Source: Rikenellaceae bacterium
Lineage (GTDB): Bacteria > Bacteroidota > Bacteroidia > Bacteroidales > Rikenellaceae
Length of the DNA stretch: 64,000 bases
Assembly: GCA_015059945.1 (NCBI GenBank)
Contig: SUZJ01000004.1
Span: 72,646 to 136,645, forward strand
Reading direction: 5' to 3'
This document shows, one piece after another, positions 35,024-62,887 of this stretch. Position 1 is the first letter of the stretch; every line of letters begins with the position of its first letter. Made by a program: the position numbers and the translations under genes. Below the pieces are notes generated by a model. The model saw only the letters and a program-made list of their open reading frames with translations, searched no databases and was not told the origin of the DNA.

Positions 35024-35064
35024 ACCGAGGGAGAATTGAGAATTGAAAATGGTCAGTTGTGGTA

Positions 35065-43064: not shown

Positions 43065-43326
43065 ACCGACCTAAGTCATTATTACAGACCTCTCCGCCCC
43101 TTTGGGGCACCTCCCCTAACTTAGGGGAGGAGTAGTCGTGGATAGTAGGTTGATTGTGGATATCCCCCGCTCCACTACCACTCTCCCTCTGGGCTCCCCA
43201 CAACCACACTCCCCCTGAGTTAGGGGGAGTGGTTGCGTAGCAACCGAGGAGGTCTATTTCTTTAAGGGCCTTAGGGATTTCCCCCTCTAAGTTAGAGGGG
43301 GGGCGTGTGTCTGACTTAGGTCGGTT
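43064..43326. mobile_element. MITE-like palindromic element with 15-bp inverted ends
   Basis: AACCGACCTAAGTCA (43064-43078) and TGACTTAGGTCGGTT (43312-43326) are perfect inverted repeats bounding 263 bp. Inside are three strong palindromes: CCTCCCCTAA-C-TTAGGGGAGG at 43110-43130, ACTCCCCCT-GAGTT-AGGGGGAGT at about 43208-43230, and CCCCCTCTAA-G-TTAGAGGGGG at 43281-43301. There is no coding sequence. A short flanking target-site duplication is not obvious. A third copy of the end motif (AACCGACCTAA) is at about 43392. It may be a non-autonomous element or an array of REP-like units. Confidence 0.5.
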
Positions 43327-55066: not shown

Positions 55067-56200
55067 CTACTCGGTTTTCTTCAACAAATCCACCATACGA
55101 CGTGCGAACCTGTCCGACACGCCTGCACCGCCAACCACCTCGGCCAGAGCAGCATAGTCGGCCTTCATCTGCTGGTGCTTGGCACCGCCCTCGACAATGG
55201 CTGTGAGCTCTTGCGAGGCGTTTTCGACAGTCATATCGTGCTGAATGAGCTCCCTCACAACGGTACGCTGCATAATGATGTTTACCAGCGAAATCCACTT
55301 AATCTTCACAAAGGCCCTTGCCACCCTGTACGAGAACTCATCCATACGGTAGCATACCACCTCGGGGGTGCCTATGAGGGCTGTTTCCAACGTAGCCGTA
55401 CCCGAGCAGACCACCGCCGCAGCACTATAACGCAACAGCCCGTAGGTCTGGTCGGTCACCCTCTTTATTCCACTACCTTTTAGGTACTTATCATATAGCT
55501 CGTCATCGAGCCACGACACTCCTGCCACCACAAACTCCCACTGGGGCATACTCTGCGCCAGAGCCACCATAAAGGGCAGATTTTTCTTTATCTCGTTCTT
55601 GCGACTACCCGCCAACAGAGCCACCAGCGGCTTGTTGCCCAAACCATTTGCCCTGCGGAATTGCTCCTCGCTCTCCACCTCGGCCAGAGTCTGGGTTATC
55701 GAGTCCATAATGGGGTTACCCTCGTAGATAGCCTCGATGCCCTTGCCGCGGAAGTATTCAATCTCAAAGGGGAAGATTATGAACAGCTTGTCTACCCACC
55801 TGCGTATGCGCTCCACGCGGTGCTCCTTCCAGGCCCACACCTTGGGCGAGATGTAGTAAAAAGTCTTTATACCCTTTTGGTGGGCATACTTGGCCATCTT
55901 GAAGTTAAACCCGGGGTAGTCAATCAGTATCAACACGTCGGGCCCAAAGGCATCGACATCGCGCTGACACTCACCCAGTTGATTGAATATCGTGCGCAGG
56001 TGTTTGAGCACATCCGACACCCCAAAGAACGAGGTCTGGCGGTAGTGTTTGGCCAGATTGTCCTTGCCGCCCACCTCGGCCATACGGTCGCCACCCCAAA
56101 AGCGGAATTGCGCCTCGGGGTCGGCCTTCTGGATGCCCTTCATCAAGTTCGAGCCGTGCAAATCGCCACTCGCCTCGCCTGCAATCAAATAGTATCTCAT
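55067..56200 (-). CDS. lpxB: Lipid-A-disaccharide synthase
   Basis: The 377-residue GT-B glycosyltransferase starts RYYLIAGEASGDLHGSNLMKGI and has the family blocks FFGVSDVLKHL, LIDYPGFNFKMAKYAHQKGIKTFYYISPKVWAW and VALLAGSRKNEIKKNLPFM. It joins UDP-diacylglucosamine and lipid X to form the lipid A disaccharide at the inner membrane. The last residues and the stop are intact. The spacer to trmD upstream is a 7-bp tandem repeat array. Confidence 0.96.
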   Translation of the reverse strand: MRYYLIAGEASGDLHGSNLMKGIQKADPEAQFRFWGGDRMAEVGGKDNLAKHYRQTSFFGVSDVLKHLRTIFNQLGECQRDVDAFGPDVLILIDYPGFNFKMAKYAHQKGIKTFYYISPKVWAWKEHRVERIRRWVDKLFIIFPFEIEYFRGKGIEAIYEGNPIMDSITQTLAEVESEEQFRRANGLGNKPLVALLAGSRKNEIKKNLPFMVALAQSMPQWEFVVAGVSWLDDELYDKYLKGSGIKRVTDQTYGLLRYSAAAVVCSGTATLETALIGTPEVVCYRMDEFSYRVARAFVKIKWISLVNIIMQRTVVRELIQHDMTVENASQELTAIVEGGAKHQQMKADYAALAEVVGGAGVSDRFARRMVDLLKKTE

Positions 56201-56205
56201 TGAGG

Positions 56206-56258
56206 AATTGAGAATTGAGAATTGAGAATTGAGAATTGAAAATTGAAAATTGAGAATT
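56206..56258. repeat. 7-bp tandem array (AATTGAG)7.5 between trmD and lpxB
   Basis: Heptamers AATTGAG/AATTGAA follow each other without a gap for 53 bp. They lie between the trmD stop and the lpxB start on minus, within the same operon. Variation in copy number would change the spacing of the two genes. Related arrays occur at 35034, 51621 and 61011. Confidence 0.85.
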
Positions 56259-61004: not shown

Positions 61005-61010
61005 AGGGAG

Positions 61011-61036
61011 AATTGAAAATTGAAAATTGAAAATTG
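61011..61036. repeat. 7-bp tandem array (AATTGAA)3.7
   Basis: The array starts 7 bases after the stop of the RluA-type gene, with the same heptamer as at 56206-56258. It opens an intergenic block of 294 bp that holds only repeats up to about 61218, then the leader of the lipoprotein gene. Confidence 0.75.
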
Positions 61037-61060
61037 GCAGACCCTCTCGGCCTACGGCCA

Positions 61061-61173
61061 CTCCCCCTACCTTAGGGGGAGAGTCATCTGCACTCACAAC
61101 AACTCCCCCTTTTGAGTAAGAGGGAACGTAAAAAAACCCCTCCCCTAAGTTAGGGGAGGTGCTGCGGAGCAGC
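61061..61173. repeat. Palindromic repeat block (CTCCCC family)
   Basis: It contains a CTCCCCCTA...TTAGGGGGAG inverted repeat at 61061-61082 and CCTCCCCTAA-G-TTAGGGGAGG at 61139-61159, then GCTGC-GGA-GCAGC. The second palindrome differs from that at 43110-43130 only at its centre. The block is of a type I remember as widespread between genes in Bacteroidota. It may affect mRNA ends; no protein is coded. Confidence 0.7.
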
Positions 61174-61183
61174 GGAGGGGTCT

Positions 61184-61218
61184 GTTAGTCGTTAGTCGTT
61201 GGACGTTAGACGTTAGAC
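61184..61218. repeat. 7-bp tandem array GTTAGTC x2, GTTGGAC, GTTAGAC x2
   Basis: Five heptamers in a row, followed by seven As. The same unit occurs as GTTAGACGTTGGAC at 43324-43337 right after the 43064-43326 element, and as GTTTGAC x2 at 31616-31629. Confidence 0.75.
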
Positions 61219-61298
61219 AAAAAAATTTCACCCCCGTGCAACTATTTGGCGCTCATTTGCGTCAATAGTATAAAACATACCCATAACACCTACTGCCT

Positions 61299-61715
61299 AT
61301 GAAACGAGGATTAAAGAACGCTCTATTGGGTCTGCTGGGCTTCTCGGCAGCACCTATGCTCACCGCTTGCTATGGCGTCGAGCCCGACATTCCCGACCAG
61401 TACTGGGACCGCACATTCAAGGGACAAGTAACTGACACACTGGGCAATCCGCTCAAAGGGATACAGGTATATGTAAGCCAAGGCGACTATTGGTGCGCCC
61501 CAGATGGTGTGCCCGAAATGGACAGTTCAATCGAGCCTACCCTGACCGACGAGAGGGGCAACTTTGAGATTTACATCCACACCTCTGATGGCAACGCCAG
61601 ATTTGTGGCTGCCGACATTGACGGCCTCGACAATGGCCACTACAAACACGCCGAAGAGTCAGTAATCGACTTCGACGGCACCCTGGAGATGCTCCCCGTA
61701 GAGGTTGTAGAGTAG
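61299..61715 (+). CDS. Putative lipoprotein of a radical SAM/lipoprotein pair
   Basis: The 138-residue protein has a lipoprotein signal (LLGLLGFSAAPMLTAC, Cys24). The mature part starts YGVEPDIPDQYW and then forms a carboxypeptidase-regulatory-like beta-sandwich (FKGQVTDTLGNPLKGIQVYV, DERGNFEIYIH). It lies 37 nt before a radical SAM/SPASM gene. I recall a predicted class of small lipoproteins encoded beside one radical SAM family in Bacteroidetes (TIGR04134 with TIGR04133, by memory). If so, the lipoprotein would be the substrate or partner. No role has been shown to my knowledge. It probably sits in the outer membrane or periplasm. Confidence 0.75.
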   Translation: MKRGLKNALLGLLGFSAAPMLTACYGVEPDIPDQYWDRTFKGQVTDTLGNPLKGIQVYVSQGDYWCAPDGVPEMDSSIEPTLTDERGNFEIYIHTSDGNARFVAADIDGLDNGHYKHAEESVIDFDGTLEMLPVEVVE

Positions 61716-61752
61716 CCCAATCTTTTCCACACATACGAAAAGCCCAACACCT

Positions 61753-62835
61753 ATGGCAACAAAACCTAACAAAATAGGACTGCGCAAGCGCCTTGCCCTG
61801 AATCTCTATTCGGGCATACGCTCCGACTTGGAGAAGGAGCACCCCCTGAGGGAGATTTTCTGGGAGTGCACGCTGCGCTGTAACCTCAATTGCGTTCACT
61901 GCGGTAGCGACTGCCGTAGCAGCTCGGCCACGCCCGATATGCCTGCCGAAGATTTCCTGCGAGCCATCGACCAGGTTACGCCCCACGTCGATCCCCACTT
62001 GGTGATGATTGTCATCACGGGTGGCGAGGCGCTGTGTCGCAAAGACCTCGAATCAGTCGGGCGCGAGCTCTATAAGCGCGGCTACCCTTGGGGCTTGGTC
62101 ACCAACGGAATGTTGCTCACAAGGGAGCGTATGCGCTCGCTTGTAGCTGCGGGTATGCGCTCTATCACCCTCTCTATCGACGGCTTCGAGGAGCAGCACA
62201 ACGCCATACGTCGCCACCCACAGAGCTGGCGCAATGCCGAGCGCGCGCTGGAGGTTATGACCACCACCGAAGGCATTGTCTATGACGTGGTTACCTGCGT
62301 AGGGCCCCACAATATCGACTCGATGCCCGCCTTCCGCCAGTGGCTCATCGATAAGGGCTGTAAGGCTTGGCGCCTCTTTACGATATTTCCCGTTGGCAGG
62401 GCTGCCGAGAACGACGCACTGCAACTCTCGCCCGAGCAGTACCGCAGCCTGATGGAGTTTATCATCGAAACTCGCAAACAGGGGCAAATCAAGTGCAACT
62501 ACGCTTGCGAGGGCTTCTTGGGCGACTATGAGTCCGAGGTTAGGGATAACTTCTTTGGCTGTATGGCCGGCGTGAGCATTGCGGGAGTGAAGATTGACGG
62601 CTCTATTAGCGGTTGTACGAGCATACGCGCAGGCTTCGACCAAGGCAATATATATAAGGATAACCTGTGGGAGGTGTGGCAGAATGGCTTTGGCGAGTTC
62701 CGCGACCGCAGCTGGGCCCGCAAGGGCGAGTGTGCCAACTGCAAGGTGTGGAAATTCTGCAAGGGCAACGGTATGCACCTCTACGACGACGACCACAACC
62801 TGCTCCACTGCAACTATAACAAGCTGTGTAGATAA
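61753..62835 (+). CDS. Radical SAM/SPASM enzyme of a lipoprotein-linked system
   Basis: The 360-residue protein carries the radical SAM cluster motif C43NLNC47VHC50, followed by the SAM-binding VITGGEALCRKDL and the TIM-barrel strands (GLVTNGMLL, SITLSIDGFEE). The C-terminal part is a SPASM domain with several Cys: FFGCMAGVSIAGVKIDGSISGC, GECANCKVWKFCKGN and LLHCNYNKLC. SPASM enzymes commonly modify peptides or proteins. With the lipoprotein gene 37 nt upstream it makes an apparent two-gene unit, ending in a strong terminator. I believe this corresponds to the rSAM/lipoprotein system (TIGR04133, from memory). The reaction is unknown. Confidence 0.85.
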   Translation: MATKPNKIGLRKRLALNLYSGIRSDLEKEHPLREIFWECTLRCNLNCVHCGSDCRSSSATPDMPAEDFLRAIDQVTPHVDPHLVMIVITGGEALCRKDLESVGRELYKRGYPWGLVTNGMLLTRERMRSLVAAGMRSITLSIDGFEEQHNAIRRHPQSWRNAERALEVMTTTEGIVYDVVTCVGPHNIDSMPAFRQWLIDKGCKAWRLFTIFPVGRAAENDALQLSPEQYRSLMEFIIETRKQGQIKCNYACEGFLGDYESEVRDNFFGCMAGVSIAGVKIDGSISGCTSIRAGFDQGNIYKDNLWEVWQNGFGEFRDRSWARKGECANCKVWKFCKGNGMHLYDDDHNLLHCNYNKLCR

Positions 62836-62844
62836 CGCCACCAC

Positions 62845-62887
62845 AAACAAAAAGGCTCTCGTAAAACCGAGGGCCTTTTTGTTTTTT
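62845..62887. terminator. Hairpin terminator between the radical SAM gene and uvrA
   Basis: AAAAAGGCTCTCG (62849-62861) pairs with CGAGGGCCTTTTT (62868-62880) around a 6-nt loop. It serves both convergent genes. Confidence 0.85.

Follow-up and report, generated by a model that had tools for sequence, protein, structure and literature searches.

A Tyr-Gly motif in the lipoprotein partners of a Bacteroidales radical SAM/SPASM enzyme points to a probable splicease-type maturation system

A small lipoprotein gene that is closely followed by a gene for a radical SAM/SPASM enzyme raises the question of what the enzyme modifies, and by what chemistry. We examined such a pair in a 64,000-nucleotide stretch of DNA from a Rikenellaceae bacterium (contig SUZJ01000004.1), referred to below as the window. 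The ORF coordinates agree with the original prediction for this locus, which had placed the lipoprotein gene 37 nt ahead of the enzyme gene (both on the + strand) and a terminator at the end of the unit, where a terminator-like hairpin is indeed found. The unit and its immediate surroundings comprise the following features:

61005..61298, no strand assigned: intergenic repeat block, not specific to the unit (same heptamer and palindrome elsewhere in the window)
61299..61715, + strand: lipoprotein gene, encoding the predicted substrate (TIGR04134; 138 aa)
61753..62835, + strand: radical SAM/SPASM enzyme gene (TIGR04133 family; 360 aa), encoding the proposed splicease-like lipoprotein maturase
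62845..62884, + strand: intrinsic-terminator-like hairpin at the end of the unit (17 pairs, loop of 6, T tail)

The 294 bp ahead of the unit contain repeats, as had been noted (AATTGAA heptamers and CTCCCCCTACCTTAGGGGGAG), but these do not set the unit apart: elements of the same block are also present at positions 35034, 43209 and 56199–56258 of the window, and we therefore regard them as general intergenic repeats that are uninformative about the two-gene unit. As a separate observation, arrays of AATTGAA/AATTGAG heptamers and a CTCCCCCT-AGGGGGAG palindrome recur in intergenic DNA of the window (35034, 43209–43229, 56199–56258 and 61011–61081), far above chance.

In profile searches, both proteins exceeded the curated NCBIfam cut-offs of the family pair that had been proposed for them. 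The enzyme scored 557.9 bits against TIGR04133 (rSAM_w_lipo; cut-off 425), covering positions 1–349 of the 350 in the profile, and the lipoprotein scored 46.3 bits against TIGR04134 (lipo_with_rSAM; cut-off 39.8). The closest named kin of the enzyme come from Tidjanibacter MAGs (75–80% identity), followed by Alistipes. Among 295 sampled genomes of Bacteroidales, TIGR04133 was present in 71 (about a quarter, gut lineages among them); a sample of 393 genomes from across the phylum added a single occurrence outside Bacteroidales. The enzyme was found in 41 of 43 genomes with an above-cut-off TIGR04134 match versus 30 of 252 others (Fisher p = 2e-28); a genome of the same genus without the enzyme (G253) yielded no TIGR04134 match either. 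No third gene (protease, transporter or RRE) recurs around the enzyme in 71 loci of at least 7.5 kb, the second recurring cluster in that search (14 loci) being the enzyme itself.

The pair also occurs outside the Bacteroidota, on the Treponema saccharophilum plasmid pTS1 (locus L203; lipoprotein motif SCYGMP), where it adjoins an Mpi-type invertase gene; its presence there suggests horizontal transfer. Public annotation of plasmid records carries both family names, and no mention of either identifier or of the associated phrases was found in the open literature searched. The study of Scott et al. 2022, reportedly a broad survey of spliceases, may already include the TIGR04133 branch.

The genes upstream of 88 TIGR04133 enzymes encode several unrelated lipoproteins, and what is common to them is a Tyr-Gly-x-Pro (YGxP) motif. 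It was found upstream in 72 of the 88 loci of this discovery set and in 70 of 81 loci of a second set, gathered after the motif had been defined (the two sets may share some species). When the loci were dereplicated to 106 by removing enzymes at least 80% identical, 86 retained a same-strand upstream ORF with the motif, and in 78 a YGxP ORF ended between −70 and +100 nt from the enzyme start. The two genes, whose co-occurrence the original prediction had proposed to list, thus adjoin far more often than chance and are not rare neighbours. Of 105 upstream windows 84 contained YG.P, as did 5 of 92 downstream windows and 2 of 67 windows further upstream (p = 8e-29 versus downstream); shuffled proteins gave a mean of 3.9 and a maximum of 10. 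In an unbiased scan of all gapped three-residue patterns upstream of TIGR04133 genes, YG.P ranked first. About 13 of the 106 loci lack the motif upstream by the patterns used, though several of these have a Pro-less YG or a carrier that lies downstream or farther away. Not every site has Pro at +3, and the window protein (CYGVEP) is among the exceptions.

When the signal peptide and the motif were masked, BLAST sorted 111 precursors into 25 groups, among them a large Ig-like one (85 members), coiled-coil proteins and short low-complexity tethers; unrelated origins number at most 25, because BLAST can miss the kinship of short low-complexity proteins. Five non-Ig carriers scanned against NCBIfam matched no family at its curated cut-off. 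A lipobox lies ahead of the motif in 105 of the 111 precursors (the scan covered only sequence upstream of the motif), 12 precursors carry two or three copies, and in some the motif is near the C-terminus. The residue before Tyr is M (32 instances), C (28), E (27), K (16), A (7), V (6) or L (6), with more than one kind in 16 of 28 loci that have several motifs, while the residue between Gly and Pro is mostly Thr, Val, Ser, Met or Cys. The proposal that the lipoprotein is a candidate substrate is strongly supported by a motif common to non-homologous partners. We consider it very likely that the enzyme acts on the lipoprotein and does so at Tyr-Gly. The pairing of the genes, the recurrence and conservation of the motif, and the kinship of the enzyme described below are observed, and the role of the motif as reaction site is what we infer.

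In the window lipoprotein, the lipobox is LTAC, with Cys24, and two features were delimited around it:

61299..61367, + strand: signal peptide MKRGLKNALLGLLGFSAAPMLTA, possibly also a recognition leader (conserved columns in kin; LGF enrichment)
61368..61385, + strand: predicted modification site, lipobox Cys24-Tyr25-Gly26-Val-Glu-Pro, an XYG in which X is the lipidated Cys (Tyr-Gly invariance)

Tyr-Gly is invariant among 16 close kin of this protein, and 11 of their 17 invariant columns lie inside LGFSAxPxLTACYG, while the mature domain diverges. The CYGVEP site represents a variant, LTAC-YGVEP, that is also seen in two Tidjanibacter kin (LTACYGVEYEEY, LTACYGIEPQEY); further kin carry LTACYGMP or LTACYGTP. 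The tripeptide LGF was found in 52 of 105 precursor signal peptides versus 8 of 111 other lipoproteins of the same loci (p = 1e-12, inflated by relatedness), a control set that even includes some true precursors without strict YGxP. Such conservation suggests that the lipoprotein signal peptide may be read by the enzyme, as a leader. A carboxypeptidase-regulatory-like domain had been assigned to the protein; the Pfam match falls below cut-off by sequence (20.9 versus 32.3 bits), but the assignment was right in kind by fold, the best PDB match of the predicted structure (pLDDT 79.9 overall) being a SusC N-terminal extension domain (E = 2e-4). The beta-domain (residues 34–138) is mostly well predicted in this model and residues 1–33, which include the CYG site, are of low confidence, so that the site is probably exposed.

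Three more TIGR04134 lipoproteins, all above cut-off, are encoded elsewhere in the same genome (L061, 5129–7696; contig C5, about 191–194 kb). They are clustered between gltX and a proC-like gene and interspersed with a further lipoprotein-like ORF; their motifs are CAYGCP, MYGCP (twice) and AEYGCP, one protein having two. A tblastn search at 1e-25 detected no radical SAM gene in L061, and one TIGR04133 gene was found in the source genome; this single enzyme probably serves at least four lipoproteins, in trans.

The enzyme itself gave Radical_SAM and SPASM Pfam matches that were both above cut-off, and its predicted cluster-binding regions are as follows:

61861..61914, + strand: WECTLRCNLNCVHCGSDC, with the cluster-binding CxxxCxxC (C43, C47, C50) and the HCGS signature (HCGS conservation)
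62506..62811, + strand: SPASM region with C252, C270, C288, C327, C330, C336, C353 and H342 (invariance), without the Cys of the usual Cx3C step

All of these cysteines are invariant in 107 of 107 sequences, as is H342 in a 79-sequence alignment. The SPASM region departs from the canonical Cx2Cx5Cx3C pattern in that Cx2Cx5C is present and the Cx3C Cys is missing family-wide; of its seven invariant cysteines, C252 is extra in this family relative to its relatives. The HCGS signature was found in 106 of 106 TIGR04133 loci and in the TIGR04103 and TIGR03913 relatives, and was absent from the TIGR04053, MftC, PqqE and AhbD-like rows compared; enzymes outside the HCGS group carry HCRA, HCLS, YCSN, HCYL, HCHA or HCVV at that position. 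The structural model of the enzyme (pLDDT 94.5, pTM 0.92) has as its best PDB matches SPASM maturases in general (SkfB, BlsE, anSME, SuiB and PqqE) and favours no particular reaction. A membrane-docking amphipathic helix at the N-terminus was considered and rejected, its hydrophobic moment being no better than that of shuffles (fraction 0.49).

After TIGR04133 itself, the top peptide-maturase-named profile for the window enzyme was TIGR04103 (nif11 rSAM maturase 3), which also matches all 79 TIGR04133 members. The score of 121.5 bits does not reach the curated cut-off of 725, making the enzyme a relative and not a member. TIGR04103 (rSAM_nif11_3) is, we presume, IPR026482, the PlpX family. The window enzyme has WExTLxCNxxCxHCGS in common with TIGR04103 and TIGR03913, and a phylogenetic tree (unrooted) contains a branch, with support of 99/97, that sets TIGR04133, the HCGS rows and L223 apart from the rest. 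A strict clade of TIGR04133 and the HCGS enzymes was not rejected in a topology test (p = 0.29). The TIGR04133 stem is long, at 1.9–2.5 changes per column, and for this reason, together with the missing root, the tree gives support for splicease kinship and not proof. Kinship with heme synthases (AhbD/NirJ), which similar profile scores had suggested, was tested in the same way, and a grouping of TIGR04133 with AhbD-like enzymes was rejected (p = 5e-6).

One TIGR04103 locus above cut-off, from Nostoc, was examined. Its enzyme shows 27% identity over 333 columns, and the Nif11 precursor beside it ends GGRGSIALYGLPPELF; the ending ALYGLPPELF carries XYG, and the precursor has no lipobox. A 71-aa protein takes the place of PlpY at this locus. 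The neighbours of other HCGS relatives contain MYG, LYG, PYG, LYGTP (L220) and six copies of KYGYP (L222).

Several of these relatives are of interest in their own right. An Agathobacter rectalis plasmid (L204, 3737–3943) has, shortly ahead of a radical SAM gene, an unannotated ORF of 68 aa with the C-terminus GPVMYGTGVRM, likely a missed precursor. The six KYGYP repeats (AALKYGYPCDLE, TLMKYGYPCGQE) belong to a 214-aa ORF after an HCGS-type radical SAM gene in another Bacteroidales genome (G145; L222, 2955–3599), a candidate multi-site splicease-like system. At four GDL-motif/DUF1843 loci (L205, L207, L216 and L218), small DUF1843 proteins beside TIGR03913-type enzymes have PYG or LYG near the N-terminus, which may make the GDL system another splicease system.

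Spliceases of the PlpX type act on an XYG motif, from which tyramine is excised and an alpha-ketoamide left; PlpXY naturally acts at MYG and LYG, and YGLP is contained in a functional tag core, PIRPGYGLPI (PMC10533398; PMC11002830; PMC10373908). The partner of PlpX in this reaction, PlpY, is a truncated RRE protein (PMC11002830). The TIGR04133 system resembles PlpXY in its XYG substrate motif (YGLP included), its HCGS signature, its place on the same side of the tree, and the way that one precursor can carry several motifs and one enzyme can have several precursors. It differs in that its substrates are Sec-exported lipoproteins, whereas those of PlpXY are Nif11/nitrile-hydratase-leader peptides; no PlpY/RRE partner and no dedicated transporter or protease gene accompanies it in the 71 loci; its SPASM domain lacks the Cx3C Cys and has C252; and X can be the lipobox Cys. 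The GDL-motif/DUF1843 system likewise combines an HCGS enzyme with small upstream proteins bearing PYG or LYG, but its DUF1843 proteins have no lipobox, and the TIGR03913 enzyme is only distant kin of TIGR04133. The TIGR04134 profile, for its part, describes one carrier architecture only: it misses the coiled-coil and short-tether precursors, and the YGxP site is not named there.

Taken together, the Tyr-Gly motif and the kinship of the enzyme argue for splicease-type chemistry. The TIGR04133 enzyme is probably a lipoprotein-modifying radical SAM/SPASM maturase of this type, and by analogy its reaction would be, with similar likelihood, tyramine excision (−135.0757 Da) giving an alpha-ketoamide. 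NCBIfam gives no biochemical role for TIGR04133, and the statement that the pair has no known role is sharpened by motif and kinship. In the scheme that we envisage, the enzyme would recognise its precursor in the cytosol, probably via the conserved signal peptide doubling as a RiPP-like leader, and would attack the X-Tyr-Gly site; the modified precursor would next leave the cytosol, receive its lipid on the lipobox Cys and be cleaved by signal peptidase II, with the result that the cell would display a lipid-anchored alpha-ketoamide. X would be the lipidated Cys24 itself in the window lipoprotein, and Met, Glu, Lys, Ala, Val or Leu in other members. In this scheme, the leader role of the signal peptide and the order of the steps are inferred.

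Our first idea was a three-residue cyclophane (triceptide), in which the Tyr ring is joined to the beta-carbon of the i+2 residue in Tyr-Gly-X with a change of −2 Da. SPASM enzymes that make Tyr C3 to C-beta (i+2) cross-links are known (PMC11002830), the aromatic-X-X motif of triceptides (3-CyFE SPASM) could in principle equal Tyr-Gly-X, and the i+2 residues that predominate here each have a beta-carbon. However, 4 of 125 instances have Gly at that position (for example KYGGP in L072 and L076) and another 4 have Pro; invariance falls on Tyr-Gly, as fits XYG splicing, while a cyclophane needs no invariant i+1 Gly; and triceptides are made by other enzyme families, of which the best 25 NCBIfam matches name none, although they do name TIGR04103. 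We have therefore demoted the cyclophane and regard it as unlikely. Hardly more probable is some other chemistry on Tyr or Gly (Tyr hydroxylation, Gly alpha-carbon modification, epimerisation or a thioether). The missing Cx3C Cys, the extra C252 and the long stem branch mean that the TIGR04133 reaction may differ from that of PlpX, and the changed auxiliary cluster possibly diverts an ancestral splicease reaction to another outcome; against this, XYG is kept across enzyme families on the same side of the tree, and a thioether is disfavoured in the lipobox-adjacent class because the Cys is needed for lipidation.

Lipoprotein sorting signals sit near the lipobox Cys, and many of the motifs lie within about 14 residues of it, as would suit a structural or sorting signal in lipoproteins whose neighbouring enzyme acts on something else. 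We consider this very improbable, as the motif is shared by unrelated folds, can lie as far as 75 residues from the Cys, tracks the neighbourhood of the enzyme gene (the G253 genome lacking both families), and is also present in the TIGR04103 precursor that has no lipobox.

Returning to the splicease-type reading, the products of known spliceotide pathways inhibit proteases (PMC11117315; PMC10373908), so that the likeliest use of the modification would be as an electrophilic group on the envelope that blocks proteases or captures proteins. By analogy with those spliceotides, and given the range of X, we tentatively suggest that protease inhibition or covalent capture is perhaps the function. 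The protease-inhibitor role in particular is speculative, and a point against it is that a lipobox-adjacent ketoamide would sit at the membrane surface, an awkward place.

What is new here, relative to the open literature searched, is the likely modification site of the TIGR04133/TIGR04134 pair. The predicted site and mass shift make TIGR04133 testable in a single proteomics (mass spectrometry) experiment. It is conceivable, at somewhat less than an even chance, that Bacteroidales envelopes display lipid-anchored alpha-ketoamides that differ in side-chain specificity (M, C, E, K, A, V, L). If the enzyme is a splicease, a lipoprotein signal peptide would act as a RiPP-like leader, common gut bacteria would carry ribosomal beta-amino acids and reactive ketoamides on their lipoproteins, and any protease inhibition or covalent capture there could affect both the host and microbial competitors.
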